A DNA stretch of 64,000 bases from contig NZ_CP014544.1 in the NCBI RefSeq assembly GCF_001586255.1, forward strand, positions 1,209,501-1,273,500. The letters run 5' to 3'. A program made the position numbers and the translations under genes. Shown here in pieces: positions 16,229 to 53,739 of this stretch. How positions within the stretch are numbered: the stretch's first letter is position 1; each line of letters starts with the position of its first letter. This DNA comes from Zhongshania aliphaticivorans. Its GTDB lineage: Bacteria; Pseudomonadota; Gammaproteobacteria; Pseudomonadales; Spongiibacteraceae. The notes under the pieces were generated by a model, which did not search any database, was not told the origin of the DNA, and was given only the letters and a program-made list of their open reading frames with translations.

Positions 16229-16263
16229 TAAAAAAGGCCAATACCGGAATGGGTATTGGCCTT
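16229..16263 (-). terminator. Intrinsic terminator of the giant lipoprotein gene
   Basis: A 12-bp stem, AAGGCCAATACC with GGTATTGGCCTT, and a 6-base loop. On the minus strand the stem is followed by a run of T. It lies about 65 bases past the stop at 16330. Confidence 0.9.
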
Positions 16264-16329
16264 TGAATTTGCGCCTATTAACTATTGCAGTGCTTTTGTC
16301 CTATTTGCTTTAGTTGTGATCGGCGTCAT

Positions 16330-19300
16330 TTATGGTATTGCTGGCAGTTGCGGGCAGAGATCATCACGAGTCACGCCGTTAACGTTTAGTACCGCACTTA
16401 TTGGGTATAAAAAATGCGACTTCTGACATTTTGCCGAGGGCTCACGACGTGGACATTCGTGGGGGTCATCGTTGCTTTGCCCGGCTGGCATCGATTCTGG
16501 GTTACGCGGAGGAACGTTGCCGATAGGTGCCGGCAAGGTGCTTTGGGTTGCGCAGCGGTCATCGGGCGCGGCATCCCACGAGGCATCGAAAATGGCCAGC
16601 GCAGAACCGACGTACTGCTTGTCAATGTACTGCGCACCACTGGCAACGGTGAGGTCGTCAAGTAGCGCGTATTCCTGCTCATCGGGGTGACGGTTGGGAA
16701 ACGCTAAATCTTGACGGTCAACACCTGCATGAATAGTACGTGCCATTACATCGGCGCTCCACATAGTGACCTGATGATCAGAGAAGCCAACTTGCAATAA
16801 AAGTTCGTTGTCAGGTGTATTGGGGTAGGGCGTATTGCTTGAACTGGCGGTACCCATATGGTGGGCGTAGCCGTTGTTTTCAGCGCGCTCCCAGAGCATC
16901 TCCATTAAAGAGAACACCAAACTGCGATCGAGGTCATCGTGATAGGCGAGATTTAAGGGAGTGGCGTAAATGTCAAAATCCACGCTGCGTCTCAGCAGGG
17001 TTGAATAATTCATACCCGGCACGCCCAGTACCCCGCGATTAACATCGCGAGATACCGCAACAACCGCGCCGCCCATAATGCCACCCTGGCTGTTGCCGTC
17101 GTAGTAGACTTCGTTAGTGGTAAATAATGCTTTGCCATCGCCATCTTGGAATGCAGGCTGCGCGGCAAAACCCTCGGGGTGTTTCATGGCACGGGCCAAG
17201 AACATCATGTTCAGCATGCCCTGCTGAGAGCTGTCGGTAAGTGAGGGTAGATTAGAAACATCCAGCAATATTGCGACGATGCTTGCGATATCCCCCTCGG
17301 AAAAGCCAAACCAATCGACCGCGCAGAACATCATATTATGGGCATCGGCCATGTCGGCCACATGCCCCGAGTTCACTTCGCCACGACTGCCGAGTAAACC
17401 GTGCCCGTAGAGTGAAGGCCGTGCCGGGCTAATAAGGGCCGAGTTTGGAATATTACAAATATACTTGCGGGTCATGGTGGCTTGCGGGCTAGCTCTATCG
17501 GGCAAGCCATCGCCAAACACGGATCGCGAGTCCGGTGCATCGGTGGGATTATAGAAAAAGCGATTTGGCGGTGCACTCACGGCGCGGCCGAACTCCGGTG
17601 CATCGGGATCAAGCGGCAGACAAACGTCACGCAGGTCCCCGGCAAGGTCACGCAGGTCCCGAGCAAAGGAACGACACTGGTTGTAAAGTTCTGCAAGTGC
17701 TGCGGGGTAATCCTCGCGCAAACGATTAAATAAGTCGTTGATCGCGCCGCCTTCAAGTGGCGAAGGGTCGCTCGGCATTATATAGCTAGGCACGGTAATC
17801 GTGCCTTCTATACGACGCGCGATGCGCGGGTTGGAGGAGTTAGTGTTACTGTCGACGGTAATGGTCGGCGCCTGTCCCATTTCATAGCCGGCTTGCCCCG
17901 GTAATATATTCACGGTTTCGCCCAGTGTCGCAAAGGCGTCATCACGAATATGCAATAAGCGGCCAGCGAGGCTGCGCTCGCTGGCAACGGTGAAATCCCA
18001 GGCGAGGTAGAGTTCGTCGCGATGAATATCCTGAGGCAAATAGTCAAAGACCTGGGTTTCTAATTGCGCGCAGCGGTCGTTGAGTTGCGGAAGTAGAGTG
18101 GCGTCGCCGTCGCGACACATACGAAAAGCCGGGCCAGCCGCAATGGTTTCGCCGCTATTATTTTTTAATTTGCGCAGCGCAACAATATAACGAGTGCTCT
18201 CTTCAAAGTTTTGCGCGGGGCGAATAATCAGCGCAGGCCGTGTTTCGCCTTTGGTCGGCGGCGACGGTATAGGTTGATCGGTTTCGGGTATTTTGCCCTG
18301 AACAAAAATGCCTGCGTTCAAATCAATTTCTGCCCAGATCGGATGGCGCTCGCCCGTCGCTGTATTAATGACCACTATTGGCGCGTCGCTGGCGGTGTAA
18401 TCGGCCAAACGAGTAATGGGCACTGCGCCTTCAATGGGGCCGATGGGTTTGCCGCTTTGATCTTTCACAGTAGCAATATCCGGAACATAGGTCAGGATCA
18501 TTTGACCGGGAGAGAAACCGTCGTTGCGGTTCCACTCAGTAGGGTCAATTGGTTTCCCTGCAACATTGCGCGGCATCGCTAAGGGATTAAAGTTTACCCG
18601 GCGGCCGGTGCCGCCCATGTCGGCTGATTGCGGCGAGCCGACTTGGGCCTGGGTGGTGTATTGATCGCTCGGGAAGGGGAATAGGCAATGTGCCGGGTCG
18701 AGTACATCACAGCCCTGTACACTGGCTTTTGCCGCTTCCAGTAACAAGGCGCTGTTGTCTGCCGACAAGGCGCCAGTGTTATTGATTAAGTTGTACAGCT
18801 GATTCACTGCAGACTGCAGTTCCTCGCCGACGAGTGGTGTTTCGCTAAGGCAGGGGCCATCGTCGGGTACGCAGACTTGGAATTCAGCTAGGCTTGGGGC
18901 TGGCGAGAATACATCGCTGGGTTTGCCTAGTTCGGGTTGCGGGTCACCATTGCTGTCGACACTGTACAAGGGCAAATCTACGGTGCCGTTGACGGTGACC
19001 GCTGCAATGCTGGCATCGCGGGAGAATGTCGCAACAAATTGCACGTGCTGACCAAAGAGCAGAAGCGCGATGCTATCGCCAGGTAGTAAACGTTCGGCAA
19101 CGCCGACCAAGTCGACACTGTGCTCGCCTAAGCCACGCAGTGGCGTGAGCTGGTCGTCGATCAGTTCCCAGTTAGCGGTTCCGGCATACTTTATACCCAG
19201 GCCAGCAAAGATAATGCTGTCGCAGCCAGTGGTATTGGTGCCAAGGTCGGGGGAATCGCAATTGAATGCCGTTTCATTGATGCTTGCAGGCGCCGCAATG

Positions 19301-22300
19301 TTAACGTTCAAATGCGCGATACCCGCAAGAATGGTTTCGTTCAAAATCTCGCCCAATTCCACCGCTACTGGTGCCGCGCCAACACCGTTAGTGGCTGCGG
19401 CATAACCGTTTGGCACAGGAGTAGTGGTATTTATTACTCTGGTGCTGAAGTTGCTGCTAGGGGCGCTGAGATTTGGTTGCGGTGCCAATAGTGCGGTGTC
19501 GTCAAAGTAAACCGTGTCGCCGTCACCGAGCACCATGCACACATCGTCAAGGGCGACGAGGCTTTGTGCTGGACGTAATTTGCTATTAAACCATTTCAGC
19601 TCGTCTGTGCTGCAGCCAGCGCCACCAACCGGTGTTGCCGGGCCGTCTGGGGCTTGGGCGTAGGGTAGTGCGTGACCGCTGGTATGGGTGTAAAGATTTA
19701 CGTCGGCACCCGCTGCGGTCAGACACTGCAGATTCCACCAAGCTTCGTTGAAGTTAAATAAGGTGTCGGGCATGCCTTGGGTGAGTAAAACGCTCACACC
19801 CCTTAGGTAATCAGCTGCAGAACCGTTGGGCAAGACCAGTGCACCTGGATCAAAACTGCCGTTGAGAATCATCGCTATGGTGTCGGCAGGGTATTGTTTG
19901 TAAGGCATGCTGGGTAGGCCAGCCGCCTGACACCAGTAGCCTAAGCCGTGAAATTGGAACCAATCGAGGGCGCTGCGCGGGAACTCATTACTTGAGACGC
20001 CCCGAGCGAGCGTTTCTTTGATAAAGGGGTCTTGCCCGCGGTTATCCGGTGTTTGGCCATTGCTCAAACCAACGCCGTAGCTCGCGCTTTCACCAAGCCC
20101 GACCAGTGCCGCCGTCCACATTGATTTAACGGTATCGCCTGGATTTAATGAATTACGCAAATCATGCCAGGTTATATCGGGTTGCAGTGCATCGAGACGT
20201 TTTTTCTCATCAACGGTGAGCAGCAGTAGTTGGTAGCCACCGCCGTAACTTCCACCCGTGGCACCGACCAGTAAATTGTCGCCACCAGCTACACTCTCGC
20301 CAGACGTTGGCCGCGCGACAAGTTCACCGCTCGCGTCATTTTTCCACGCGAGATAATCAAGGTTTTGTTCAGCCCAATCTAATATTGCGAGTAAATATTG
20401 CCCTTCAAACTCCGGGTCCATAACCCTGATGGTGCCGGAGCTGGCGCCAAAGCCTCGCTGATCAATACTGATAACCGTGTAGCCGTCGTTGCGATACTCA
20501 GCAAAACCCGACTCGCTGCGTGAGCCACCGTAGCCATGCCCTTGCAAAAGCAGAGGGTGGGCTGCAGTCGCGCGCTTGCTACAATCGAAGTTTGTTGGTT
20601 CCAGCACTTGAAAACTGACCACCTGATTAATGCCGTCATGATCCACTAGCGGCAGCTGAACGTGGTAGCTGCGATTGCCTTGCAGATTGCTCTGCTGCTC
20701 GCAAGATGCATTCTGTACCTGTGGCGGGGCGACTTCACCAATATCACCAAATACCGAACACATGCCGTCGGGAAATCCGGCGGCAAGGCACTGGCTGGCG
20801 AGCGGCGTATTGGGGTTTACTAACTCGCAGAACATAGCGGCGTCTTCGCCGCCAAACTCATGGCAGCGGTCAGCGTATTCGCGCTGCACATAGTCAACGC
20901 GGAATCCCGCCATACTAAACAAGCATTCGTTACTCGCGGGGTCCGTCTGACAGGCCGCCAGATACGGTGGTAAATAGGCTTGCGCCTCTTCTTCCCGCTC
21001 AAACAGCGGAATATAACCTTGGGTTCTCAGCAGCGGTGCGGTTAAGGGCCCTAAGGAGACAAACTCTTCGTAGCCAGTAAATGGCACACCGGCTAGCCCG
21101 CCGTCACCGGAGGCATCAAGTGCGCTGAATTCTTCTTCAGGAATAATATAACCAAAGCTGTTCTGGGTTAGTCCGAGCAGCATGGTGTGGGCGTTCGGGT
21201 TTGCCAGCGAGCGAATCCACTTACCAAAGGTCCCGGTCGCCTCACCGGGAATGGTGACAATTTCCAGTCCGGTTTCAGCATCACCTAAGGTAATGCGCGT
21301 AACGTTCGTGGTGGTATACGGGGTGGCTTGGGGTAAGTACTGGGCCTGCGCGCGGGCTTCCTCGGGCAGTTGACCATTAGTGCCGGTAAAGTCGTAATAC
21401 TGGTTAAAGGCGCCAAGCAGGCCTGCGCCAACAAACAGCGGGTTTGTGACTGGCAGCAGCACTTCCTCGTTGCGAATGCTAAGGCCGTGGCTAATGCGGC
21501 GCTCTATAGGAAAACCGAGCCCACCGTCTGCGATGCCTTCACCTTTACAGTGCTGGTTGCCGTAATCGGCAGAGACATTGTCGTATTTAGGATCATTCAC
21601 GCAGCCTTCACGGCGGCCTGATGAAGAAGCGTCGGCAATGGGACCATTAAAGTAAAGCGCAACGCCGCCAAGCGATTCTAAGTAATCAGTAACGCCAAGC
21701 GGATAGTCGGGATGTGGAATTCGCGGCGACTCATTGATGGAGACGGGGTGCCCATTAAATTGCATAAAATGCGCAACGGGTTCGCCACTGCTTAGCGATA
21801 TTGCTTGCATCAGTGTGCCAATAACATCGGCGTCAACGTTCGGGTCAGTCTGACGTGGACGTCGATAATTGTTGAATTCCGGCAGAGCGCCGCTGCGCAC
21901 AGTGAGTTCAACATCCTGTTTGCGCGAGCGCGCTTCGATCACTGCGGCAACTGCTTGCGGATATAAAACATTGTTAAGCCAGCTTTGCGGAACGCCGCCC
22001 CACAAACCTTGAAGGTCGGCACCTGCGTGACTGTGGGTTTGGCCAAAAACAATATTTGTCGATGGAATGCCGGTGGCAGCAACAATCGCTGCGCGAACAT
22101 TATTTTGAATAACATTACCGGCGCCAATAGCGTCTAAGACTAAAAACACCACTTCCTGATTATTGGCGATATTTTCTGGGTCGGGCTGTTCGATAACCAA
22201 CGCGCGAATCCAGGTGCTTTCTAAACACTGACTTTCGGTAAAACTGGCAGGATCGTAGCTGCTTTGGTCTTGCAGTAAACAGGGCTGCTCGGCGGCTTGT

Positions 22301-24192
22301 GTAAGCTGGTCGCCAGCCATGTTGAACGGGTCAGAGAAATTTTGCAGGGGGTTTAGGCCAAAGCCGCCAAGATTGAATTTTTGGGTGCGCGGGGCAGCGC
22401 CTAAGCGCTGCTCCGTTTCGCCGCTAATCTGGCTGGCGTTTGGATTGACGCGTTGTTTACTCGCGCCAACGCGCAGTGTGCTCTGCGTGGTGTCGTTGTC
22501 ATAGAGCGTAATTGATGCCGTTGCGGATTCGCCAATAACAGCAAAATCAGAGGAGTCGACGTTCAGCTCAAAGGTTTCGGTACCTTCAAGTTCCTCGTCG
22601 TCAATTACATTGACCGTGACACTCGCGGTGGTATTTCCCGCTGCAATCACCGCGCTGCCGCTGCTCGCGCTATAGTCCGTTCCCGCCTGTGCGCTGCGGT
22701 CAATGGTATGAAAGCTAAATGAAATGTCGAAATCTTGGGCTGCGCTAATAGCTACCTGAATTTGAACAGTGGCGTCATTTTCACTGGCGTTAGTATTGGC
22801 GGCCGAGATGGTAGGCCGCTGGGATTCTGAACAACCGCGAATAATCTGGCCATCGTTTGCCGGTGTGTTAGCACAGCTGTCGCTGTTGTCGCCAACGCCA
22901 TCACTGTCGGCATCACTGGTTTCATTTTTGTCTTCGGGGAAGGCGTCATCTTCATCGGTTACACCGTCGTTGTCATCGTCGTCGTCAGCATTGTCGCCAA
23001 TGCCGTCCAGATCATTGTCTTTGCTTTCGCTCGGGTCGTAGGGGAAGGCATCGTCTTCGTCTTTAACGCCGTCATTGTCATCGTCGTCGTCAGCATTGTC
23101 GCCAATGCCGTCAAGATCATTGTCTTTGCTTTCACTCGAGTCGTAAGGGAATACATCGCTGTCGTTTGCGACGCCGTCATTGTCGATGTCGTCATCGCAG
23201 GCATCGCCAATCCCATCGTTGTCAGTATCGTTTTGCTGGGCGTTGCCAATGGTCGGGCAATTATCAGCGCCGTCTTTAATACCATCACCGTCGGTATCCG
23301 CTAGGCGCGGGTCGGTATCGGTTTCGTCTTCATCAAGGATACCGTCGCCATCAGCGTCGGCGTCGCAAGCATCGCCGCGCTCGTCGCCATCAAGATTGAG
23401 CTGGTCAGGGTTTGCGGTATTGGGACAGTTGTCTTCACTATTCACCACGCCGTCATTATCGCTGTCTTGCGCCTCGTCGACTTGGTCAATGCAGCCATTG
23501 GCGTTCACGGTGGCCCCAGTCGGGGTATTTGGGCATTGATCGTCGGCGTTATTTACACCGTCGCCATCCCTGTCGGTGCCGTTGTCGGAGTTGCTGTCAT
23601 AGTCGTATTGGCCGTCGCTAATATCAGCTTCGCTGGCATCTAGGTGAGCCTTTGCCGTTTCTTTGCTTACCAGCTCGCGGTTGCCGTCGTTATTTGCACT
23701 GCGGGCAAATTCCGCTAAGGCGCTGTCGTCAAAGTTCAGAAAATCGACGGCGCCACTAAATCGTTCAGCGGCCTGCTGTGCGACGGTGCTAATGTCGATC
23801 CCGTTGCGTGGATCTTTATCGGAATCTAAGGTGATAAGAAAGCGACCGATGTTAATGCGGATCGTCTCATTGTTATTGGCTAGCTGTTTGGGGGTAATAA
23901 ACACGGTGTCACCCGACGTCAGCACCGCGCCGAGGGGAATTTTTCCCAAGGTGAAACGGAGGGTTTCGCCCGCGTTAAATCGAAAACTGCCGTCAGTAGG
24001 GGTAATCGATGGGAAGAGATTATTTCGGGTGTATAGTAGGCCTTTTACCGGCCCATCAATCACGTAGCCAGTCAGGCTAGTTTGAGGTGACGTTGGACGT
24101 TCGGTGGTCGCACTACTGCCTCCGCCCCCACCACAAGCCGATAGAATCAGGCTAGAAATAAGGAATGTGAGCGGTTTAATTGTGTGCTTCAT
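16330..24192 (-). CDS. Giant surface lipoprotein with ceramidase-like and two alpha/beta-hydrolase modules
   Basis: Start at 24192: GAGGTG lies 5 bases upstream, giving 2620 residues. A lipoprotein signal ends in LSAC (Cys20) and a poly-Gly linker. Residues ~207-455 are TSP3 calcium repeats (DxDxDG...D), ~460-567 a Calx-beta domain. Residues ~575-1160 resemble neutral ceramidase: THSHAG (719-724), NGHPV (813-817), then GYIIPEEEF. Residues ~1165-1590 form an X-Pro peptidase/CocE-like alpha/beta hydrolase: HGYGG (1219-1223), nucleophile elbow GGSYGG (Ser1315), a possible acid Asp1448 and base His1507, followed by a beta-sandwich. Residues ~1825-2620 form a second hydrolase: PFPSDQ (1839-1844), YGHGLLGS (2262-2269), GNSQGG (Ser2368). 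The likely role is extracellular breakdown of lipids or other esters and amides. Substrates are unknown; module boundaries are approximate. Confidence 0.85.
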   Translation of the reverse strand: MKHTIKPLTFLISSLILSACGGGGGSSATTERPTSPQTSLTGYVIDGPVKGLLYTRNNLFPSITPTDGSFRFNAGETLRFTLGKIPLGAVLTSGDTVFITPKQLANNNETIRINIGRFLITLDSDKDPRNGIDISTVAQQAAERFSGAVDFLNFDDSALAEFARSANNDGNRELVSKETAKAHLDASEADISDGQYDYDSNSDNGTDRDGDGVNNADDQCPNTPTGATVNANGCIDQVDEAQDSDNDGVVNSEDNCPNTANPDQLNLDGDERGDACDADADGDGILDEDETDTDPRLADTDGDGIKDGADNCPTIGNAQQNDTDNDGIGDACDDDIDNDGVANDSDVFPYDSSESKDNDLDGIGDNADDDDDNDGVKDEDDAFPYDPSESKDNDLDGIGDNADDDDDNDGVTDEDDAFPEDKNETSDADSDGVGDNSDSCANTPANDGQIIRGCSESQRPTISAANTNASENDATVQIQVAISAAQDFDISFSFHTIDRSAQAGTDYSASSGSAVIAAGNTTASVTVNVIDDEELEGTETFELNVDSSDFAVIGESATASITLYDNDTTQSTLRVGASKQRVNPNASQISGETEQRLGAAPRTQKFNLGGFGLNPLQNFSDPFNMAGDQLTQAAEQPCLLQDQSSYDPASFTESQCLESTWIRALVIEQPDPENIANNQEVVFLVLDAIGAGNVIQNNVRAAIVAATGIPSTNIVFGQTHSHAGADLQGLWGGVPQSWLNNVLYPQAVAAVIEARSRKQDVELTVRSGALPEFNNYRRPRQTDPNVDADVIGTLMQAISLSSGEPVAHFMQFNGHPVSINESPRIPHPDYPLGVTDYLESLGGVALYFNGPIADASSSGRREGCVNDPKYDNVSADYGNQHCKGEGIADGGLGFPIERRISHGLSIRNEEVLLPVTNPLFVGAGLLGAFNQYYDFTGTNGQLPEEARAQAQYLPQATPYTTTNVTRITLGDAETGLEIVTIPGEATGTFGKWIRSLANPNAHTMLLGLTQNSFGYIIPEEEFSALDASGDGGLAGVPFTGYEEFVSLGPLTAPLLRTQGYIPLFEREEEAQAYLPPYLAACQTDPASNECLFSMAGFRVDYVQREYADRCHEFGGEDAAMFCELVNPNTPLASQCLAAGFPDGMCSVFGDIGEVAPPQVQNASCEQQSNLQGNRSYHVQLPLVDHDGINQVVSFQVLEPTNFDCSKRATAAHPLLLQGHGYGGSRSESGFAEYRNDGYTVISIDQRGFGASSGTIRVMDPEFEGQYLLAILDWAEQNLDYLAWKNDASGELVARPTSGESVAGGDNLLVGATGGSYGGGYQLLLLTVDEKKRLDALQPDITWHDLRNSLNPGDTVKSMWTAALVGLGESASYGVGLSNGQTPDNRGQDPFIKETLARGVSSNEFPRSALDWFQFHGLGYWCQAAGLPSMPYKQYPADTIAMILNGSFDPGALVLPNGSAADYLRGVSVLLTQGMPDTLFNFNEAWWNLQCLTAAGADVNLYTHTSGHALPYAQAPDGPATPVGGAGCSTDELKWFNSKLRPAQSLVALDDVCMVLGDGDTVYFDDTALLAPQPNLSAPSSNFSTRVINTTTPVPNGYAAATNGVGAAPVAVELGEILNETILAGIAHLNVNIAAPASINETAFNCDSPDLGTNTTGCDSIIFAGLGIKYAGTANWELIDDQLTPLRGLGEHSVDLVGVAERLLPGDSIALLLFGQHVQFVATFSRDASIAAVTVNGTVDLPLYSVDSNGDPQPELGKPSDVFSPAPSLAEFQVCVPDDGPCLSETPLVGEELQSAVNQLYNLINNTGALSADNSALLLEAAKASVQGCDVLDPAHCLFPFPSDQYTTQAQVGSPQSADMGGTGRRVNFNPLAMPRNVAGKPIDPTEWNRNDGFSPGQMILTYVPDIATVKDQSGKPIGPIEGAVPITRLADYTASDAPIVVINTATGERHPIWAEIDLNAGIFVQGKIPETDQPIPSPPTKGETRPALIIRPAQNFEESTRYIVALRKLKNNSGETIAAGPAFRMCRDGDATLLPQLNDRCAQLETQVFDYLPQDIHRDELYLAWDFTVASERSLAGRLLHIRDDAFATLGETVNILPGQAGYEMGQAPTITVDSNTNSSNPRIARRIEGTITVPSYIMPSDPSPLEGGAINDLFNRLREDYPAALAELYNQCRSFARDLRDLAGDLRDVCLPLDPDAPEFGRAVSAPPNRFFYNPTDAPDSRSVFGDGLPDRASPQATMTRKYICNIPNSALISPARPSLYGHGLLGSRGEVNSGHVADMADAHNMMFCAVDWFGFSEGDIASIVAILLDVSNLPSLTDSSQQGMLNMMFLARAMKHPEGFAAQPAFQDGDGKALFTTNEVYYDGNSQGGIMGGAVVAVSRDVNRGVLGVPGMNYSTLLRRSVDFDIYATPLNLAYHDDLDRSLVFSLMEMLWERAENNGYAHHMGTASSSNTPYPNTPDNELLLQVGFSDHQVTMWSADVMARTIHAGVDRQDLAFPNRHPDEQEYALLDDLTVASGAQYIDKQYVGSALAIFDASWDAAPDDRCATQSTLPAPIGNVPPRNPESMPAGQSNDDPHECPRREPSAKCQKSHFLYPISAVLNVNGVTRDDLCPQLPAIP
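22930..23160. repeat. Internal ~102-bp direct duplication within the TSP3 region
   Basis: A segment coding KDNDLDGIGDNADDDDDNDG and the following 14 residues occurs twice in tandem with a 102-bp period and very few base differences. This indicates recent in-frame expansion of the calcium-binding stalk. Confidence 0.8.
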
Positions 24193-24545
24193 GCATACAC
24201 CTCGGGCTGAGTGTAAAAGAGTCGGTTTTGTCACCACGGACGGCCAAGGGCGGGCTGGGGCGAGTTAAGGATAGTCATTTTTATTATTCGCACTTCACGT
24301 CGGGTACGGCATGGGGATGCGTACTGTTCGGTGTTCTCGGTGCATATATTGCCCGTAGTATACATTCTGGCTGGCTTGTGACAACACGAATAAGAAGCGA
24401 GACTTGGCGGCTAATGTCGCCGAATTGACGGAAAGTGATAGTAATCAATAGGCTAACGGCAAAAGTTGTTGGCGAATATTTGATCAAATTACGGTAATTT
24501 AATACTGGCTGGGCTAGAACGTATTCATGCGGAGAACTTGCGCTC
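24193..24545. other. Non-coding gap upstream of the giant lipoprotein gene
   Basis: About 350 bases with no credible gene; a 67-codon minus-strand frame here lacks a ribosome site and recognisable features. It should contain the promoter of the lipoprotein gene and the 3' end of the ygjP-like transcript. No regulatory motif was recognised. Confidence 0.55.
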
Positions 24546-35164: not shown

Positions 35165-35245
35165 ATGACACTGCGTTTGCACGTTCAAAAGTTGGCTATT
35201 GCTCGTTCTCTTTTAACAAAGGGCGGGGTGACATATGCCTGCTGA
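35165..35245 (+). CDS. Small ORF overlapping the cbiA start (26 codons)
   Basis: ATG at 35165 follows AAAGGAGTAGGAA, one of the best ribosome sites in the region. The frame (MTLRLHVQKLAIARSLLTKG and six more) runs 11 bases past the cbiA ATG at 35235 before TGA. The overlap suggests translational coupling of cbiA to a leader peptide. Function is unknown and the reading may be fortuitous. Confidence 0.35.
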   Translation: MTLRLHVQKLAIARSLLTKGGVTYAC

Positions 35246-36569
35246 TATTTTATGTCCGGCGGTGTTTTTGACTGCGCCCGCCTCGGGCCAAGGTAAAACC
35301 ACGATTACTGCGGCTATTGCCCGCTACCATCGCTTGCAGGGCCGCGAGGTGCGCATTTTTAAAATGGGCCCCGATTATTTAGACCCGCAAATTTTAGAGC
35401 AGGCCTCTGGTCATCCCGTGGCTCAGCTCGATCTGTGGATGGCGGGCGAGGCCTATTGCCGAGATCAGTTTTATCGCGCTGCGCAAACCGCCGATTTGAT
35501 TTTGGTGGAAGGCGCCATGGGTATGTTCGACGGCGATCCCTCGAGTGCGGATTTGGCGCGCACCTTTGGCATTCCCATTGTGCTGATTATGGACGTGAAG
35601 GGCATGGCGCAAACGGCGGCGGCGCTGGCCTGTGGCCTAGCCAATTACCGCGACGACGTTGCGGTGACGGGTTTAATTGTCAATCACTGCGCTTCTGAGC
35701 GCCATCGGCAACTGATTGCCGACGCCCTGCCAGCAAGCCTGCCTTTGTTAGCGAGTTTTGCCAATACGCCGAATATTCACCTGCCGGAACGTCATCTCGG
35801 CTTGGTGCAAGCCTGTGAAGTGCGCGAGGAATTAGAGGCCTGCTTTAATGCCGCCGCCGAGCTGGTTGCTGCCAGTAGCTTGGCGAGCCTGCCGCCGCCG
35901 GTGAAATTTTCTGCCCAGTCAATTATGCCGCCACCGCGCTTATTGGCGGGGGTGAGCATTGCGATTGCGCAGGATGAAGCCTTTAGTTTTATTTACCCCG
36001 CTAATACCCGGTTGTTAACCGCGATGGGTGCCGAATTGTTATTTTTCTCGCCAATTCACGATGCTAAATTGCCCGAGGCCGACGCCCTGTGGTTGCCCGG
36101 CGGCTACCCAGAATTACACGCAGATGCGTTGGCGGCGAACACCGCAATGCACAGGGAAATTCAGCAGTTTTTTCAAAGCGGCAAAGGGATTTTGGCCGAG
36201 TGTGGCGGCTTTATGTATTGCCTAGAAAACCTCAAAGATTTGGCGGGTACGCGCCATACCATGCTGGGGCTGTTGGCTGGTCAGGCAGCCATGCGTGGCC
36301 GTGGTGGTTGCCAAGGTATGCAGAGCGCGGTATTGCCCGAGGGCGAGCTGCGCGCCCACGCCCATCATCGCTCCCAGTCAGAAAACACCCCAGAACCGAT
36401 TGGCTACGGCAGGCGGCCAAAGCACCCCGCACCGGGCGAGTCCATATACCGGCAGCGGGGTTTAACCGCCTCGTACTTGCACTTGTTCTTTCTCTCGGCA
36501 CCCGAGGTAATCGCCAAGGTATTTTTGCCGCATACGCAAATAAAGGATGCAGATTGTGTCAGGGATTAA
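35235..36569 (+). CDS. cbiA: Cobyrinate a,c-diamide synthase CbiA
   Basis: CbiA uses ATP and glutamine to amidate the a and c side chains of the corrin ring. The 444-residue protein has an N-terminal P-loop, APASGQGKTT (14-23), a dethiobiotin-synthase-like domain with KMGPDYLDP, and a C-terminal class I glutaminase with nucleophile Cys323 (LAECGGFMYC) and a late His in SYLHLFF. In view of CbiX, CbiD and CbiG in the same operon, the cobalt-containing substrate (CbiA rather than CobB) is likely. It heads the cbi operon behind the riboswitch. Confidence 0.93.
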   Translation: MPADILCPAVFLTAPASGQGKTTITAAIARYHRLQGREVRIFKMGPDYLDPQILEQASGHPVAQLDLWMAGEAYCRDQFYRAAQTADLILVEGAMGMFDGDPSSADLARTFGIPIVLIMDVKGMAQTAAALACGLANYRDDVAVTGLIVNHCASERHRQLIADALPASLPLLASFANTPNIHLPERHLGLVQACEVREELEACFNAAAELVAASSLASLPPPVKFSAQSIMPPPRLLAGVSIAIAQDEAFSFIYPANTRLLTAMGAELLFFSPIHDAKLPEADALWLPGGYPELHADALAANTAMHREIQQFFQSGKGILAECGGFMYCLENLKDLAGTRHTMLGLLAGQAAMRGRGGCQGMQSAVLPEGELRAHAHHRSQSENTPEPIGYGRRPKHPAPGESIYRQRGLTASYLHLFFLSAPEVIAKVFLPHTQIKDADCVRD

Positions 36570-37314
36570 TCTTTCAATTCTCGCCTTGGGTTTCTCGCTG
36601 GGCTTTGTTCACGCCATGGATGCAGATCATGTTATGGCGGTGTCGGCCTTGAGCAATCGCCATCACGACAACGGCAAACAGCGCGGTATAGCGGCCAATT
36701 TGGCGCTGACCTTGCGCCACTGTAGTCATTGGGCATTGGGCCACGGCGCGGTACTGTTGCTGAGCGCTGGCGTGGTGTTTGGGCTGGGGCTGAGCTTGCC
36801 TGCGAGCCTAGGTCATTTTGCCGAGCTTGCGGTGGGTTTGGTGCTGGTCGTGATTGGCGGTTCGCTGTTGTGGCAATTACGACGGGAACGGGTGGTGGTG
36901 TTGCGTCATAAGCACCAGCACGAGCATGGCGAGCTGGAGCATGTTCATTTAGTAAAAAGCAGTACCGTGAATGATGCCGGTGCCAATTCCTCAAACTCTA
37001 CAAAACACAGCGCAATGCCTGCGGCCATAGCCCATACCCCAGTTATGGTTGGCGCTCTGCACGGCTTGGCGGGCAGCGCGCCAGCCTTGGCCTTGGTGCC
37101 GGTGATAAATGATATGGCGCTATTGTCGGCGCTGCTTTATGTCTTGGTTTTCTCCTGCTCGGTGCTATTGGGCATGGTGGTGTTCGGCTTGGGCCTTGGT
37201 AGTGTGCAATCGTATTTGGCTCAGCGCCACAGCAATTTATTTGATTTGTTCAGGCAGGCCTTAGGCGCGGCCACGGTGGTATTTGGCGCGGTGTGGTTTG
37301 TGCAGGCGCTATAA
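36556..37314 (+). CDS. NiCoT-like cobalt/nickel permease with His-rich loop
   Basis: A membrane protein of about 252 residues with six or more hydrophobic segments and the metal-permease signature HAMDADH (19-25), as in HoxN/NiCoT transporters. A cytosolic or periplasmic loop contains HKHQHEHGELEHVH, a probable metal-collecting tract. The GTG at 36556 is preferred because AAAGGA lies 8 bases upstream; an ATG at 36547 sits directly on that site. The gene overlaps the cbiA end. Within a riboswitch-controlled cobalamin operon it most likely imports Co2+ for CbiX. Confidence 0.85.
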   Translation: MSGINLSILALGFSLGFVHAMDADHVMAVSALSNRHHDNGKQRGIAANLALTLRHCSHWALGHGAVLLLSAGVVFGLGLSLPASLGHFAELAVGLVLVVIGGSLLWQLRRERVVVLRHKHQHEHGELEHVHLVKSSTVNDAGANSSNSTKHSAMPAAIAHTPVMVGALHGLAGSAPALALVPVINDMALLSALLYVLVFSCSVLLGMVVFGLGLGSVQSYLAQRHSNLFDLFRQALGAATVVFGAVWFVQAL

Positions 37315-37317
37315 ATT

Positions 37318-38457
37318 ATGTGGCCAGAGAGCGCAGATGCCAGCCAAAACGCTAGCCCAGTTACGCCGCTGCGCAGCGGCTTAACCACGGGTAGCTGCGC
37401 CACAGCCTGTGCGGTAGCGGCAGCGAGAAAGTTGTTTTTCAATGAATCGATAAGCTGCGCCAGCATTACCTTGCCCAAGGGCAAAATAGTGGACTTGCCC
37501 ATTGTGTATTTGTCCCCCGCAGGCGCAGGGGTACTGGCCAAAACCATTAAAGACGCGGGTGATGACCCCGACGTTACCCACGGCGCCACGGTGTTTGTTC
37601 ATCTCGCTTTAAGCGCCAACAGCGGCATGCATTTTCGTGCCGAGCGCGGCGTGGGCACGGTGACTCGTAGTGGCTTGGCTTTGGCGGTGGGGGAGCCAGC
37701 GATTAATCCGGTACCACGGCAAATGATTAGCCAGCATTTGCAAGGTATTGCGGCGGGTGCGGATTATCACGGCGGTTTTGATATTGGTATTGGCATAGAA
37801 AACGGCGAAGCCCTCGCCTTAAAAACCATGAATCCACGTTTGGGGATTCTTGGTGGTTTGTCGGTACTAGGCACCAGCGGCATTGTGCGGCCGTTTTCCT
37901 GTAGCGCATACATCGCCTCTATTCATCAGGGCATTGATGTGGCGGCGAGCAATGGCTACGAGCATATCGCCGCTAGCACCGGCAACCAAAGCGAAGATTA
38001 TATTCGCCGCCATTATCAGTTGGCGGATATGGCGCTCATCGAAATGGGTGACTTTGTTGGCGCGGTTTTAAAGTACTTGCGCCGTAAGCCCATCGCGAAA
38101 TTAAGTCTCTGCGGCGGCTTTGGCAAAATCAGTAAATTGGCGGCGGGGCATTTAGATTTACACAGCCGCGCCTCAAGCATCGACTTTATGCAGTTGGCCG
38201 ACTGGGCTGCGCAAGCAGGGGCTAATGATGCACTTTGCAGCCAAGTAAAAAATGCTAACACCAGCATAAAGGCGTTAAATCTCTGCCATGCGGAAGGGCT
38301 AGACCTCGCTGCCGTTGTTTGCAATCAAGCTCTAGTCCAAGCGCGGCGCATTGTGCCGCACACCACCGAATTAGAAGTTTGGGCAATAAATCGCCGTGGT
38401 GAAGTCGTCGGCCATGCCAGTGATTTCTCGGCTAACACTACGGCACTAGCGCAATGA
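37318..38457 (+). CDS. cbiD: Cobalt-precorrin-5B C1-methyltransferase CbiD
   Basis: The 379-residue protein begins with [20 protein letters not shown] (18-37), the diagnostic CbiD N-terminus, and continues with [10 protein letters not shown] and [14 protein letters not shown]. It adds the C1 methyl group in the early-cobalt route. It starts 4 bases after the permease stop and overlaps cbiJ by 4 bases (ATGA). Presence of CbiD with CbiG supports the oxygen-independent pathway. Confidence 0.95.
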
Positions 38458-39233
38458 CGATTTTAATATTGGGCGGCACCAGCGAGGCCAAGGCGATTTG
38501 CCAGCAGTTAGCCAATATTGGCCGACCGCTGATTTATAGCCTTGCTGGCATCGTGCGCCAGCCAGTCTTGCCTTGCGAGGTCATTAGTGGCGGCTTCAGC
38601 CAATACGGCGGCTTGGCCGCGTGGTGTCAGCGGCGCGGGGTGCAAGGCATTGTCGATGCCACCCATCCCTTTGCCAGCAGAATACGCGCCAGTGCCAGTG
38701 CTGCGAGTACCGAACTAGGTATTTCCTGTTGGCGCTTTACGCGCCCGCTGTGGCAGGCGGGGCCGAATGATAATTGGCATGAGTTTAATCATTTGGCGGA
38801 GTTGCCGTGCTTGTTTAAGGCGAGTGCTCAGACAAGCCCACAGCGTATTTTTATGAGCCTAGGCCAGCTCGATAGCGATGATTTGGCGCTGTTTAAAGAT
38901 CGCCAATTGCTGCTCATTCGCAGCGCTATTCCGCTGCAAGGCGGGCTTACAAATAACGCGTCTTGGGTGCAGGCCGTGGGGCCGTTTTCTTTAGCGGGCG
39001 AACTTGCGCTGCTGCGCAACTACGGTATTGACGCCATCGTCTGCAAAAACAGTGGCGGCGACGCAGTGGCAGCAAAATTGGCGGCGGCGCGGCAATTATC
39101 CCTGCCGGTGTATATGCAGCGGCGGCCAGAGCCTGTGCTGGGTGATGAAAGATGGTGTACAGAATTTAGTACCGAACAGGCCTTGGTGTTAGCGCTTAAA
39201 CAAAGCTATTTGGCGAGTAGCCCTAATGAATAG
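38454..39233 (+). CDS. cbiJ: Precorrin-6A / cobalt-precorrin-6A reductase
   Basis: 259 residues beginning [19 protein letters not shown], a Rossmann loop typical of CobK/CbiJ, with [14 protein letters not shown] (63-76) and a C-terminal [14 protein letters not shown]. It reduces one double bond of the corrin precursor using NAD(P)H. The cbiD stop and its start overlap as ATGA. The cobalt form of the substrate is inferred from neighbours. Confidence 0.92.
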
Positions 39234-39253
39234 TTTTTGGACGTGGTTTTAAA

Positions 39254-39901
39254 ATGACATTCGATTACGAAATAGACCCGCAAGCAATAGAGCGCAATAG
39301 CTTTGCGATGATTCGCGAACTGGCTGATTTGTCGGCCTTTGACGCTGTGCAAACACAGGTCGCAATGCGGGTAATTCATAGCGCGGGTGATCCTGCATTG
39401 GCAGCACAGCTGCGGTTTAGTGTGGGCGCTTGCGATGCTGGGCGGCGGGCCTTGGCCGCGCAGGCGCCAATACTCTGCGATGTAGAAATGCTTAAGCAGG
39501 GGCTGACCAAGCGCATGTTGGCGCGCCCAGCCCAGTGCTTTTTAAATGCCGAGGGCGTGAGTGCAATAGCCCAAGCGCGGGGCGAAACCCGCAGCATGGC
39601 GGCACTGGAGTTTTGGGGGCCGCACTTAGCGGGCAGCGTGGTGATTATCGGTAATGCCCCCACCGCCTTATTTCGTTTGTTAGAAATGCTGGCGAGTGAT
39701 TCGAGTTTGGGCCGCCCCGCACTGGTGATTGGCATTCCAGTAGGCTTTGTCGGCGCGGCGGAATCCAAACAGGCGCTGTGGGATTGCCATCAAACACTCG
39801 GTATAGAGTGTATTACCCTATTGGGCCGTCAAGGGGGCAGCGCTATTGCCGCCTCGGTGTGCAATGCCCTGCTGCGCTGTAATCGCGGGGAGCTGTATTG
39901 A
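39254..39901 (+). CDS. cbiC: Precorrin-8X / cobalt-precorrin-8 methylmutase
   Basis: A 215-residue protein that moves the methyl group from C11 to C12 to form (cobalto)hydrogenobyrinate. The catalytic His is His42 in MRVIHSAGDP, with the substrate-contacting ERNSFAMIRE near the N-terminus and GIPVGFVGAAESK near 176. The stop codon overlaps the start of the next gene as TGATG, so translation is coupled. Confidence 0.95.
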   Translation: MTFDYEIDPQAIERNSFAMIRELADLSAFDAVQTQVAMRVIHSAGDPALAAQLRFSVGACDAGRRALAAQAPILCDVEMLKQGLTKRMLARPAQCFLNAEGVSAIAQARGETRSMAALEFWGPHLAGSVVIIGNAPTALFRLLEMLASDSSLGRPALVIGIPVGFVGAAESKQALWDCHQTLGIECITLLGRQGGSAIAASVCNALLRCNRGELY

Positions 39902-41238
39902 TGCCGCTAGATAAGGCGATGCCGTCATTAAGCCAAACGCGTCTTTCCCCCGTGGATGTCATTGGTTTGGGCGTGGGCAATTCAGCTGGCGAGGAATTGC
40001 ATTTAAGCGCCACCGCGCAAGCGGCACTGGGCGCTGCAGATTGGGTTATCGGCAGTGCGCGGCAATTGGCGCTGGTTGCGCCGTGGGTTCCTGAGCAGCG
40101 AGCGCGTCTGCTGCCGAAAATTCCAGAACTACTCGCCCAGCTTGAGGACATGCCAGACAAGCGGGTGGTGGTTCTGGCCTCGGGCGATCCACTGTACTAC
40201 GGCATTGGTCGCTGTTTGATCGCCCACTTTGGCGCTGATGCGCTGCGCTTCCATGCAGGGGTATCCAGTATTCAGGCGGCTTGCCATCGCTTGGCTTTGT
40301 CGCTGCAGGATGTAGACGTACTGAGTTTGCATGGCCGTCCGGTTTCAGTTTTACGGCGTTATTTGCGCGCTGGCGCGCGCTTGCTGATATTGACCGACAA
40401 ACACAGTCATCCCCGCCAGCTGGCTCAGCTCTGTGTGGAGTGCGGTTTTAGCCAAGCGCGAATCAGTGTGTGCGAGAACTTGGGCTACCCGCAGGAAGCG
40501 ATTAGCCATTGGACTGTCACTGAATTGCTGGCAGAGGGGAGCGGGCAGAATCGCGAGTTTGCTGCGCTGCATGTTTCGGTGATTTATGCGGGGGTGGGCG
40601 ATGGCGTCTTACCGGTATTCCCCGGTATTGCCGACGCGCAGTTTTTTACCGACGGCGCCAGTGGTCAGGGCATGCTCACCAAGCGCGAAGTGCGTTTGAA
40701 CATATTGTCGCTAATGCAAGTTCAGGCCGGCGATGTGGTGTGGGATATCGGCGCAGGCTGCGGTGGTGTGGCGGTAGAGTTGGCGCGCTGGGGCGGCGGG
40801 GCGCAGGTGTTTGCGGTGGAATCTAAAGCGCAGCGCCTAGCGTGTTTGCTGCAAAATAGGGATCACTTTGGGGTGCCAGATCGCCTGCATATTATTGCGG
40901 GGCGCGCGCCTGCGGCCTTGGCTGAGTTGCCGCCAGCGAATAAGGTGTTTATCGGCGGCAGTGGTGGTGAGCTTACTCAGATTTTACAGCAAGTGTGGTC
41001 GGGTATTCCGCGTGGGGGCTGCGTGGTAGTGAGCGCGGTTACCGAGACCAGTCAGCAGTTGTTACGCAGTTTTGAACAGCAATTAGTGGCTGGCCAATAT
41101 CGCAGCGAAGCCCTTCAAATTGCGGTGAGTCGCCGTGGAGAGCTGGCCGGTGAACCCTGCTTTAGACCACTATTGCCGGTGTATTTGTACCGTTTTGAAA
41201 AAACGGCGGCGCGCAGCGAGGTTATCGACAATGTCTGA
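39901..41238 (+). CDS. cbiET: Fused C5/C15-methyltransferase and decarboxylase (CbiE-CbiT, CobL)
   Basis: A 445-residue fusion. The N-terminal half is a CbiE-type tetrapyrrole methylase (VIGLGVGNSAGEE, then VVVLASGDPLYYGIG). The C-terminal half is a CbiT-type class I SAM domain (VVWDIGAGCGGVAVELAR), which methylates C15 and decarboxylates the acetate at C12. Start at the ATG 39901 rather than the TTG one codon earlier. The cbiL start lies inside its last codons. Confidence 0.95.
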   Translation: MPLDKAMPSLSQTRLSPVDVIGLGVGNSAGEELHLSATAQAALGAADWVIGSARQLALVAPWVPEQRARLLPKIPELLAQLEDMPDKRVVVLASGDPLYYGIGRCLIAHFGADALRFHAGVSSIQAACHRLALSLQDVDVLSLHGRPVSVLRRYLRAGARLLILTDKHSHPRQLAQLCVECGFSQARISVCENLGYPQEAISHWTVTELLAEGSGQNREFAALHVSVIYAGVGDGVLPVFPGIADAQFFTDGASGQGMLTKREVRLNILSLMQVQAGDVVWDIGAGCGGVAVELARWGGGAQVFAVESKAQRLACLLQNRDHFGVPDRLHIIAGRAPAALAELPPANKVFIGGSGGELTQILQQVWSGIPRGGCVVVSAVTETSQQLLRSFEQQLVAGQYRSEALQIAVSRRGELAGEPCFRPLLPVYLYRFEKTAARSEVIDNV

Positions 41239-52002: not shown

Positions 52003-53739
52003 ATGATATCGGTTGATTCAGTCATAGATGAGCAGTTTCCCCGGATATCTAAGGGCAGCCCGCGCATTAAGAAAACCTTGTCGGCGCTACTTAAATACCT
52101 ATTTCACGAAGCGGAGTTCAAGCAGTTTGAGCGCGACTACCCCTATTTGCAGGGACTGGATTTTGTTGAAAAAGGCCTAGAATATTTTGATTTTGGCTAC
52201 GCGGTAAGCGCGCTAGACAAAGAGCGTATACCGGTCACCGGCCGCGTGGTGATTATTTCTAATCATCCTATTGGTAGCTTGGATGGTCTGGCACTCTTAA
52301 AACTGGTGTCAGAGGTGCGCTCTGATGTCAAAGTGGTAGCGAATGAACTGCTCTATGCGATAAAGCCGCTGCGGAGTTTGTTGCTGCCTGTCGACAATAT
52401 GAGCGGTAAACGCAATCGCAAGGAAAACTTACAGGCAATCCACGGCCATTTGAATAGTGAAGGTGCCGTCATTATTTTTCCGGCCGGGGAGGTTTCCCGA
52501 TTTAGTCCGACAGGTATCCGTGATGGCCGTTGGCGCAATGGCTTTATTAAGTTTGCCGTCAAGGCTAAAGCGCCAATCTTACCGGTTCACATAAATGCCC
52601 GAAATTCGGTGTTCTTCTACGCATTGTCTTTACTGGCAAAGCCATTATCTACTCTGTGGTTGATTCGGGAAATGTTTAAGCAAAATAATCGAACTGTGCG
52701 AGTGACTATTGGCTCGGCGATCGAGTTTGATGTCTATGAAAAGTTACCGCTTACCGCACCAGCTAAAGCGCGTCTGTTTAAAAAACATCTATATAAACTG
52801 GGGCGACGTAAACGCGCGGGTGAGCCTTGCTTTATGCCGGTTGCCCAGGCAGTTGCGCATCCGGAAGATCGCCAGGAATTGCGAGCCGCTATTCGTCAAT
52901 GTGACCACTTGGGTAATACCCGAGACGGTATGGAAATTTACTGTTATCAATACAGCGGTGATTGCACGGTAATGCGGGAGATTGGTCGACTGCGAGAGGT
53001 GAGTTTTCGCGCGGTTGGCGAAGGCACCGGCCGTCGTCGCGATGTGGATCGCTTTGATGCTTATTACGACCATATTGTGCTGTGGGATGAGAACCAGTTA
53101 GAGCTCGTTGGCGCCTACCGTTTAAAGCGCATCGCGAGTTTAGACGACGGCCAGACCCTGTACAGCGAATCTTTATTTGACTATCAAATTCCTTATGCCG
53201 AAGAATATTTTGAATGCGGCGCGGAGCTTGGTCGCAGTTTTGTGCAGCCCCGCTACTGGGGGCGCAATGGTCTGGATTATCTTTGGCAGGGGCTGGGCAC
53301 GTATTTGCAGCGCTATCCAGACGTGCGCTATTTATTTGGGCCGGTGAGTTTGAGCGATAGCCTACCCCGAGCGGCGAAGGATCTGCTAATCCCATTTTAT
53401 CAAACTTATTTCCCCACCACTCAAGCCTGGGCTAGTGCGAAAAGCCCTTACCGCGCGGAAACGAGCATTTTGCAATTTTGCGGTGACGATTATCGCGCTG
53501 AATTTACACAGCTAAAGCAAGAGCTTGCCGATCTGTCCTGCGCAGTGCCGACGCTTTATAAGCAGTATACCGAACTCTGTGAGCCGGGCGGTGTTAGCTT
53601 CGCCGCATTTAATGTTGACCCCGACTTTGCCGATTGTATTGATGGTTTGGTGCTGGTGGATCTTAGCAAAATGAAAGCGGCGCGGCGCAAGCGGTATTTG
53701 GGGGGCGAGGTCGGACGTCTGATGTCTGACGTGGGGTAA
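52003..53739 (+). CDS. Two-domain acyltransferase, OlsF-like ornithine lipid synthase candidate
   Basis: 578 residues. The N-terminal half is a lysophospholipid acyltransferase-like domain with SNHPIGSLDG (HX5D) and FPAGEVSRF. The C-terminal half resembles OlsB/hemolysin-type N-acyltransferases: MREIGRLREVSFRAVGEGTG, LVGAYRL and ELGRSFVQPRYW. This arrangement is that of OlsF, in which one protein makes both acylations of ornithine lipid; identity is inferred. The last residues, EVGRLMSDVG, are encoded by a copy of the GTCGGAC heptad repeat, so the repeat has entered or extended the coding end. Confidence 0.83.
   Translation: MISVDSVIDEQFPRISKGSPRIKKTLSALLKYLFHEAEFKQFERDYPYLQGLDFVEKGLEYFDFGYAVSALDKERIPVTGRVVIISNHPIGSLDGLALLKLVSEVRSDVKVVANELLYAIKPLRSLLLPVDNMSGKRNRKENLQAIHGHLNSEGAVIIFPAGEVSRFSPTGIRDGRWRNGFIKFAVKAKAPILPVHINARNSVFFYALSLLAKPLSTLWLIREMFKQNNRTVRVTIGSAIEFDVYEKLPLTAPAKARLFKKHLYKLGRRKRAGEPCFMPVAQAVAHPEDRQELRAAIRQCDHLGNTRDGMEIYCYQYSGDCTVMREIGRLREVSFRAVGEGTGRRRDVDRFDAYYDHIVLWDENQLELVGAYRLKRIASLDDGQTLYSESLFDYQIPYAEEYFECGAELGRSFVQPRYWGRNGLDYLWQGLGTYLQRYPDVRYLFGPVSLSDSLPRAAKDLLIPFYQTYFPTTQAWASAKSPYRAETSILQFCGDDYRAEFTQLKQELADLSCAVPTLYKQYTELCEPGGVSFAAFNVDPDFADCIDGLVLVDLSKMKAARRKRYLGGEVGRLMSDVG
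53710..53732. repeat. Heptad-periodic repeat, copy e, inside the olsF-like C-terminus
   Basis: GTCGGAC GTCTGAT GTCTGAC GT lies within the coding sequence just ahead of the TAA stop. It encodes part of the last ten residues. Confidence 0.75.

Follow-up and report, generated by a model that had tools for sequence, protein, structure and literature searches.

The described proteins closest to the one considered here include enzymes of both polysaccharide and lipid breakdown. The accessible parts of the published reports describe, on the polysaccharide side, multicatalytic carbohydrate-active enzymes (CAZymes) in Teredinibacter (PMC12055684) and the Saccharophagus degradans enzyme Lam16A with its TSP3 linkers (PMC2386152), and, on the lipid side, VolA of Vibrio cholerae, a lipase that is extracellular, associated with the membrane, and supplies FadL with the fatty acids it releases (PMC12208996); it is a surface lipoprotein (PMC5500766). 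Here, we report on a gene in a stretch of 64,000 nucleotides from Zhongshania aliphaticivorans (contig NZ_CP014544.1, positions 1,209,501 to 1,273,500; the whole stretch is called the window), whose product carries three different predicted hydrolases on one lipoprotein chain. It is a member of a family of module-shuffled giants, present in its own bacterial family and in at least one other (genome G167), and the novelty lies in this family of shuffled multi-hydrolase lipoproteins more than in the one module order. On balance, we favor reading the window protein as a surface-tethered, multicatalytic lipid hydrolase. A literature search, with subscription papers mostly outside its scope, gave no description of such multi-hydrolase proteins among the matches listed, judged by titles and the openings of abstracts; within the same scope, a ceramidase was found together neither with DUF3604 nor with ornithine lipid.

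On the minus strand, a frame without stops runs from 24237 to 16330. Translation most naturally begins at the ATG at 24192, right next to the signal peptide, which gives a gene at 24192-16330 and a product of 2,620 amino acids (aa; 279.9 kDa, isoelectric point 4.2). From the N to the C terminus, the protein is laid out as a lipobox, an anchor domain (N), a TSP3 array, a Calx-beta domain, and three hydrolase modules, called CER, COC, and CT:

24133..24192, minus strand: signal peptide and lipobox, aa 1-20 (...LILSAC), read from the translation, the lipobox by eye
23578..24069, minus strand: anchor domain N, aa 42-205, recognized by matches within the same genome
22828..23577, minus strand: TSP3 calcium-repeat array, aa 206-455, Pfam TSP_3 in six stretches, E 2.2e-24
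22492..22806, minus strand: Calx-beta domain, aa 463-567, Pfam PF03160, E 3.6e-14
20737..22476, minus strand: CER, divergent neutral-ceramidase-like module, aa 573-1152, from a profile match via the related module CER2 and invariant residues
18913..20721, minus strand: COC, S15/CocE-type alpha/beta hydrolase, aa 1158-1760, from Pfam, Foldseek, and profile matches
16333..18792, minus strand: CT, VolA/Pla-1-like alpha/beta hydrolase, aa 1801-2620, from a profile match to TIGR03502-matching proteins

A domain search, which the initial annotation of this DNA had proposed as a check, placed TSP_3, Calx-beta, and Peptidase_S15 above their Pfam cut-offs in the whole protein; for CER and CT it gave nothing above cut-off, and they were identified through their relatives. 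The lipobox named in that annotation reads, by eye, as LSAC followed by GG at the end of the signal peptide, and the signal letters are identical in the Z. antarctica frame. Its Calx-beta domain is likewise present, as are its TSP3 repeats, with the correction that the array (34% acidic residues) begins only at aa 206 and is preceded by the anchor domain, to which three of four examined loci of the same genome align at 34-37%. The motifs that it had quoted can all be found in the translation: THSHAG (719), NGHPV (813), GGSYGG (1313), the YGHGLLGS region (GHGLLG, 2263), GNSQGG (2366), and PFPSDQ.

All three modules trace to lipid or ester hydrolase families, and their activities are predicted from this kinship. 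CER, judged by profile comparison, belongs to the ceramidase superfamily as a distant member, and its candidate active site is complete. The CER of the window protein has no Pfam match of its own, the PF04734 gathering cut-off not being reached, and PDB searches with its sequence or its profile gave nothing up to E 1. Three relatives (L032, L072, and L074) match this family (Ceramidase_alk) at E 1.1e-6 to 6.8e-5, below its cut-off (22.1, 28.1, and 24.3 bits vs. 32.1). The bridge is CER2, a second ceramidase-type module found in other family members, which exceeds the PF04734 cut-off (59.0 to 64.4 bits), falls short of the NCBIfam neutral-ceramidase cut-off (51.4 vs. 1200), and, with its motif regions lined up, matches the solved neutral ceramidase 2zws (E 1.1e-12). 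Profile alignment of CER with CER2 gave E 1.1e-6 over 336 columns, in which THSHAG, NGHP, and DAS fall on their counterparts and which also include the stretch with E984 and Y1015; a smaller CER alignment of six rows had given E 5.8e-4. Controls with the CER profile gave 0.66 against COC, 0.011 against module E, and 0.21 against a VolA set (both introduced below).

H720, H722, H815, E984, and Y1015, together with S856, are invariant in seven of seven CER sequences, drawn from fused and separate proteins. By alignment through CER2 to 2zws, we take the first five to be candidate Zn ligands and the serine to be the candidate nucleophile. The ceramidase-like module of the initial annotation can therefore be kept, as a divergent relative that retains every candidate Zn ligand. 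Its proposal of sphingolipids as the substrate is less secure, because ceramidase kinship does not by itself fix the acyl-amide substrate; our view leans to lipids in general.

COC is a predicted lipase/esterase-type hydrolase. Peptidase_S15 (PF02129) matches at aa 1199-1361 with E 3.5e-11 (43.7 bits, cut-off 23), and S1315, D1476, and H1507, invariant in 14 of 14 rows, would by analogy form its Ser-Asp-His triad. The fold search used a predicted model of CER plus COC and is counted as support for COC alone, the CER half being poor; in the COC part, the mean predicted local distance difference test score (pLDDT) is at least 70 in 37 of 60 ten-residue blocks. Foldseek ranked 8yzn ("PaL") first (E 2.2e-17, template modeling score by target 0.66, root-mean-square deviation 6.0, 644 columns), followed by cocaine esterase and then amino-acid ester hydrolases. 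A 14-row COC profile run against solved chains also put 8yzn, there named "Lipase," in first place (E 3.6e-7). From its name, 8yzn would be lipase PaL of Pseudomonas alcaligenes, which hydrolyzes menthyl propionate according to the accessible part of a review (PMC9902596). The window protein does not reach the CocE_NonD (TIGR00976) cut-off (16.9 vs. 66.3 bits). Of the CocE/X-Pro-peptidase-like hydrolase first suggested, the S15/CocE type stands; an X-Pro peptidase function was rejected, the nearest relative by fold and by profile being a lipase, and there is no sign of a peptidase.

CT is, on profile evidence, a divergent and remote relative of the VolA/Pla-1 phospholipases. Pfam gave nothing above cut-off for it, and PDB searches with the single sequence or a profile gave nothing up to E 1. 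TIGR03502, the VolA/Pla-1 family, is the sole NCBIfam match (to E 0.1) for three of five CT proteins including that of the window, at E 1.6e-4 to 5.7e-4. A six-frame TIGR03502 search of 54 genomes, relatives of the order, found a match in 15 and one above cut-off in two, and eight of the proteins it found make up the VolA set. Aligned with this set by hhalign, CT gave E 4.8e-13 locally over 508 columns and 1.5e-19 globally, and its GNSQGG falls on the GxSxGG of the set with the nucleophile in register. Controls gave 0.062 (COC) and 0.26 (CER) for the CT profile, and for the VolA set 0.098 with module E and 2.7e-5 with COC, the latter confined to 58 columns. S2368, in GNSQGG, and D2472-H2473 are invariant in nine of nine sequences. 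The second, distinct alpha/beta-hydrolase of the initial annotation, which had no family name there, is thus refined to a remote VolA/Pla-1 relative.

Two side observations concern the same enzymes. In a relative of the order, three consecutive frames (G027:C243:11681-18188) have sub-cut-off VolA/Pla-1 matches, the last of which holds one TGA. In family f228 of the phylum, 11 genomes (e.g., G336:C8 and G385:C44) have frames of ~670-770 aa that match CT weakly and over short stretches (E 2e-6 to 6e-4), perhaps part of a wider CT superfamily.

The relatives of the window protein carry the same modules in other combinations. Read as stop-to-stop frames, they are as follows:

Z. antarctica, 3,387 aa: N, COC, D, Calx, CER, CT
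G001, 3,697 aa: N, COC, CT, CER2, E
G012 and G013, 2,751 and 2,819 aa: N, CER, CT, CER2
G018, 1,867 aa: N, COC, E
SAT61, at least 2,971 aa (contig end): N, COC, PHP/DUF3604-like, COC, CT
4_bin.30, a metagenome-assembled genome (MAG), 6,307 aa: N, Calx repeats, CER, COC, COC, PHP, COC, CT, S9-like
UBA5047 (MAG), upstream frame, 1,544 aa: N, COC, start of D
UBA5047, downstream frame, 8,600 aa: rest of D, CER, CT, COC, CT, COC, PHP, CER2, E, PHP, S9-like, CER3

Module D is alpha/beta-hydrolase-like, with sub-threshold Pfam matches. The two UBA5047 frames are separated by two runs of Ns inside a D module and presumably represent one gene of ~10,000 codons, read across a draft-assembly gap. The initial annotation knew of no other chain with the module order of the window protein, and that order is indeed not repeated among the architectures compared; the protein is nevertheless not a one-off, belonging as it does to a shuffled family. 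Five of the seven distinct architectures fit into the UBA5047 chain as subsets in the same order, and the chance of at least five of seven under random order is 2.5e-4, with subtype labels assigned by hand (COC and CT types from trees; CT3, PHP, CER2, E, and S9 from BLAST and reading). The simplest reading would be a long ancestral chain with putative lineage-specific losses, rather than gains, for these five and further rearrangement in SAT61 and 4_bin.30.

Two of the extra modules can be described a little further. Module E, ~750 aa, occurs in three giants (L045:1344-3644, minus strand; L047; L028), the L045 copy being 62% and 72% identical to the others. It has no Pfam or NCBIfam family, and it has no match in 274 genomes of the class, a set without any genome known to carry E, so that little is shown by this; controls gave 0.020 against CER2 and 0.28 against COC. 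PHP/DUF3604-like modules lie at L050:7998-9257 (minus strand), L030:10053-11399, and L032:13827-15194, with HEHS.YSDG-type motifs by eye; one such module is narrowly above the DUF3604 cut-off (22.1 vs. 20.4 bits) and two have no match. Kinship to cellulosomes was rejected, as neither cohesin nor dockerin is among the Pfam matches of the window protein or of five whole relative frames (L029, L045, L043, L032, and L046).

The comparison with Z. antarctica illustrates how modules differ between close species. The flanking proteins agree at 92-98% on both sides, which makes the two genes orthologs at a single locus; the SelO/PlsB side is also found in G001. Their DNA aligns in three main blocks (95.6, 94.3, and 93.5% identity). 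Between blocks 1 and 2, ~4.1 kb (COC, D, and TSP3) is exclusive to Z. antarctica. The corresponding join, in the window gene, falls at aa 419-431, within the TSP3 array, and this array also matches elsewhere in that gene at 76-85%. Between blocks 2 and 3, the COC module and its linker are exclusive to the window gene. The differences are in frame. N, Calx, CER, and CT are 92-98% identical in the ortholog, and the window COC has no ortholog there. In trees, COC subtypes cut across species: the COC of the window protein forms a pair with that of UBA5047 position 2 (100/100), and the Z. antarctica COC with UBA5047 position 1 (100/100).

Selection on the modules is purifying. The ratio of nonsynonymous to synonymous substitution rates (dN/dS) against Z. 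antarctica is 0.045 for CER, 0.105 for N, 0.154 for CT, and 0.320 for Calx; against UBA5047 it is 0.05-0.08, with dS saturated. The single open frame of ~2620 residues claimed at the outset is therefore not due to chance, given this dN/dS and the 92-98% module identity. That the proteins are a chance fusion or an assembly artefact with decaying modules is extremely improbable: the UBA5047 giant does come from a MAG and is broken by two N runs, but the window gene sits in a single-contig 4.2-Mb genome with 100% completeness, other genomes have long stop-free frames, and low dN/dS and kept catalytic residues do not suit decay. Nor is the protein at all likely to be mainly an adhesin or matrix protein that uses hydrolase folds for binding rather than catalysis. 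TSP3 and Calx-beta domains are indeed common in adhesive surface proteins of bacteria; the candidate catalytic residues are, however, invariant in distant relatives, including stand-alone CER and CT.

The modules also co-occur as separate genes. We scanned 273 other genomes of the class plus the Z. aliphaticivorans genome (274 in all), with an E of 1e-3 as the upper limit for a match. Of the 273, 7 have CT, 4 have CER, and 19 have COC (8, 5, and 20 of 274 with the genome itself), and three of them (G080, G093, and G167) have all three modules. The hypergeometric P of co-occurrence is 4e-5 for CT with CER, 1e-3 for COC with CER, and 8e-3 for COC with CT; stricter cut-offs (P 1e-6 and 3e-7) were picked after the results and are not used. 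The modules are fused in G167, whereas in G080 and G093, from other families, they are three separate genes on different contigs, with lipobox-like starts, by eye, in all three G080 genes and in CT and CER of G093. Fusion in one lineage and co-occurrence in others suggests one shared process or task.

Overall, the distribution is patchy. CT occurs in 7 of 21 genomes of the bacterial family and 5 of 18 of the genus; of 398 genomes of the phylum, 14 have a match, which is strong in Z. aliphaticivorans and G504 and weak in the other 12. A search of 72,556 plasmid records, made with CT alone among the three modules, did not find it. At least 15 of the 18 genus genomes have a shorter COC frame (695-1,115 aa) apart from the giants; that of Z. 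aliphaticivorans has 778 aa and TSP3-type repeats.

How might such a protein work? The lipid anchor and anchor domain would hold it on the outer membrane, where a Ca2+-loaded TSP3/Calx-beta stalk would bear three different hydrolases. CER would act as a ceramidase-type Zn amidase on N-acyl amide bonds, COC as a CocE/lipase-type esterase, and CT as a VolA/Pla-1-type phospholipase. The common theme of the three is predicted to be acyl-chain release from lipids: jointly, they may cleave fatty acids off mixed marine lipids on the surface of the cell, and the freed fatty acids could pass through FadL-type channels into beta-oxidation. Surface digestion is the likely role. Modules would enter or leave the chain in frame, in part through recombination between the repeats of the stalk linkers, leaving species with different module sets.

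It is important to set out what weighs against this proposal. For the individual modules, the kinship of CER to ceramidases runs through intermediate modules, without a direct Pfam or PDB match. Of the module models that the initial annotation had suggested, that of COC supports its fold; the ceramidase half of the CER+COC prediction is poor, as is the model of CT (pLDDT 39, from 6 sequences). Window CT scores 18.2 bits against the TIGR03502 cut-off of 383.9 (E 5.7e-4), two of the five CT proteins have no match to this family, and TIGR03502 is not listed when the whole window protein is compared with NCBIfam. The six-frame TIGR03502 search missed the CT of Z. aliphaticivorans, G001, G002, G012, G013, and G019, and six of the eight VolA-set proteins lie below the family cut-off (two lie above). 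A single-sequence search of the PDB with COC ranks the acetyl xylan esterase 6fkx first (E 4.6e-4), with 8yzn not listed. At the level of the family, SAT61 and 4_bin.30 (two of the seven architectures) are not ordered subsets of the UBA5047 chain, and the extra modules of relatives (PHP/DUF3604-like, S9-like, and E) are not obviously lipolytic. The co-occurrence statistics rest on three genomes; CT is strong in G228, where CER and COC do not reach E 1e-3, and it alone is strong in G504, where CER was not sought; and 16 of the 19 other class genomes with COC, most of them weak matches, have neither CT nor CER. Finally, no lipid-uptake genes were recognized among ten neighbors scanned.

Several of these points would fit a broad ester/amide scavenger or detoxifier that is not lipid-specific, with the alpha/beta hydrolases acting on natural esters, lactones, or xenobiotics and the ceramidase-like module on other N-acyl amides. 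The S15/CocE fold spans cocaine esterase and amino-acid ester hydrolases, all of them Foldseek matches, and the acetyl xylan esterase match and the S9-like and DUF3604-like modules of relatives favor this account too, as does a weak match of the window protein to N-acyl-homoserine lactonase (19.5 vs. 400 bits). We nonetheless regard it as rather unlikely, since the three modules reach lipid families by separate routes and co-occur in three other genomes.

One flank of the gene holds pilus-type genes (PilV above cut-off, PilC/PilY1-like and GspK-like proteins below). The other holds a small HExxH protein, SprT-like by eye, followed by SelO/YdiU (above the YdiU cut-off) and PlsB, also above cut-off. 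Two further features frame the gene:

24357..24384, minus strand: promoter-like site TTGTCA-16-TATACT, upstream of the gene, from a consensus scan
16233..16264, minus strand: terminator-like hairpin with a 13-bp stem and a T run, ~65 nt past the stop codon

The promoter scan is weak, with 7 sites found against 7.5 expected; the terminator scan gave 12 against 10.2 expected, with 7 pairs as the next longest stem. The gene is probably monocistronic. An operon with the neighboring pilus genes was rejected, given the gene's own terminator-like hairpin and the absence of CT from 13 of the 18 genus genomes. Elsewhere in the genome, GspD and three FadL-type channels are above cut-off and may provide export and uptake routes, both unlinked to the gene.

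The window also encodes OlsF, a bifunctional ornithine-lipid synthase (52003-53739, plus strand; 829.7 bits, cut-off 620). Aminolipids with an amide linkage are therefore probably within the organism's reach, and a ceramidase-like enzyme might use lipids of this class as substrates. One might then ask whether the protein remodels or recycles membrane lipids, for instance ornithine-type aminolipids, of the cell itself or of neighboring bacteria rather than feeding on foreign lipids. Ornithine lipids have one amide-bound and one ester-bound acyl chain, an arrangement well matched to the pairing of an amidase with a phospholipase, and PlsB is encoded close to the gene. There is no operon link, however, and because the gene is patchy, it better fits a niche than a housekeeping function; we find this alternative improbable and retain surface digestion of mixed lipids as the preferred reading. 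Separately, cobalamin-pathway genes (CobB, CbiD, and a CbiE/CbiT fusion) are clustered at 35235-41238 (plus strand) in the window. As context only, the accessible part of a field study reports, for one station out of two, that Zhongshania correlates positively with the dinoflagellate Alexandrium (PMC11149857).

Taken further, and tentatively, the family could be a lipid counterpart of the multicatalytic CAZymes: a recombining, single-chain, surface lipid-digesting family whose members reach ~10,000 residues and 13 modules, 12 of them enzyme-like and one unassigned. Ca2+-repeat linkers would serve as recombination joints, and species would retune their lipid diet by in-frame enzyme loss or gain, perhaps starting from an ancestor with a long chain. 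For polysaccharides, chains that each combine many enzymes are known; if the modules are active, this would be a lipid equivalent of unusual size. The family also lets one read off which modules close species have gained or lost, and it offers a tractable system for asking whether tethering different lipases helps, a question that bears on how marine bacteria use lipid detritus. For those who annotate genomes, it points to ceramidase-like and VolA-like groups that score under present Pfam and NCBIfam cut-offs.

How, then, does the window protein compare with what is known? VolA carries one catalytic module. The window protein shares with VolA/Pla-1 (TIGR03502) a lipobox and an alpha/beta-hydrolase, CT being a profile-level homolog with an aligned nucleophile; unlike VolA, CT lies far under the family cut-off and shares its stalk with two other enzymes. 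CER resembles the neutral ceramidases (PF04734; 2zws, 4wgk) in its candidate Zn-ligand and Ser motifs, in register through CER2, and differs in having no Pfam or PDB sequence match of its own and in being fused to other enzymes. COC is like the S15/CocE hydrolases and lipase PaL (8yzn) in fold, best profile match, and Ser/Asp/His, and unlike them in being part of a multi-enzyme chain and below the cut-off for CocE_NonD. With the multicatalytic and TSP3-linked CAZymes of marine gammaproteobacteria, such as those of S. degradans and Teredinibacter, the likeness lies in several modules per secreted chain and, for Lam16A, in the TSP3 linkers; those enzymes act on polysaccharides, whereas in the window protein the enzyme modules that could be identified suggest lipids or esters.

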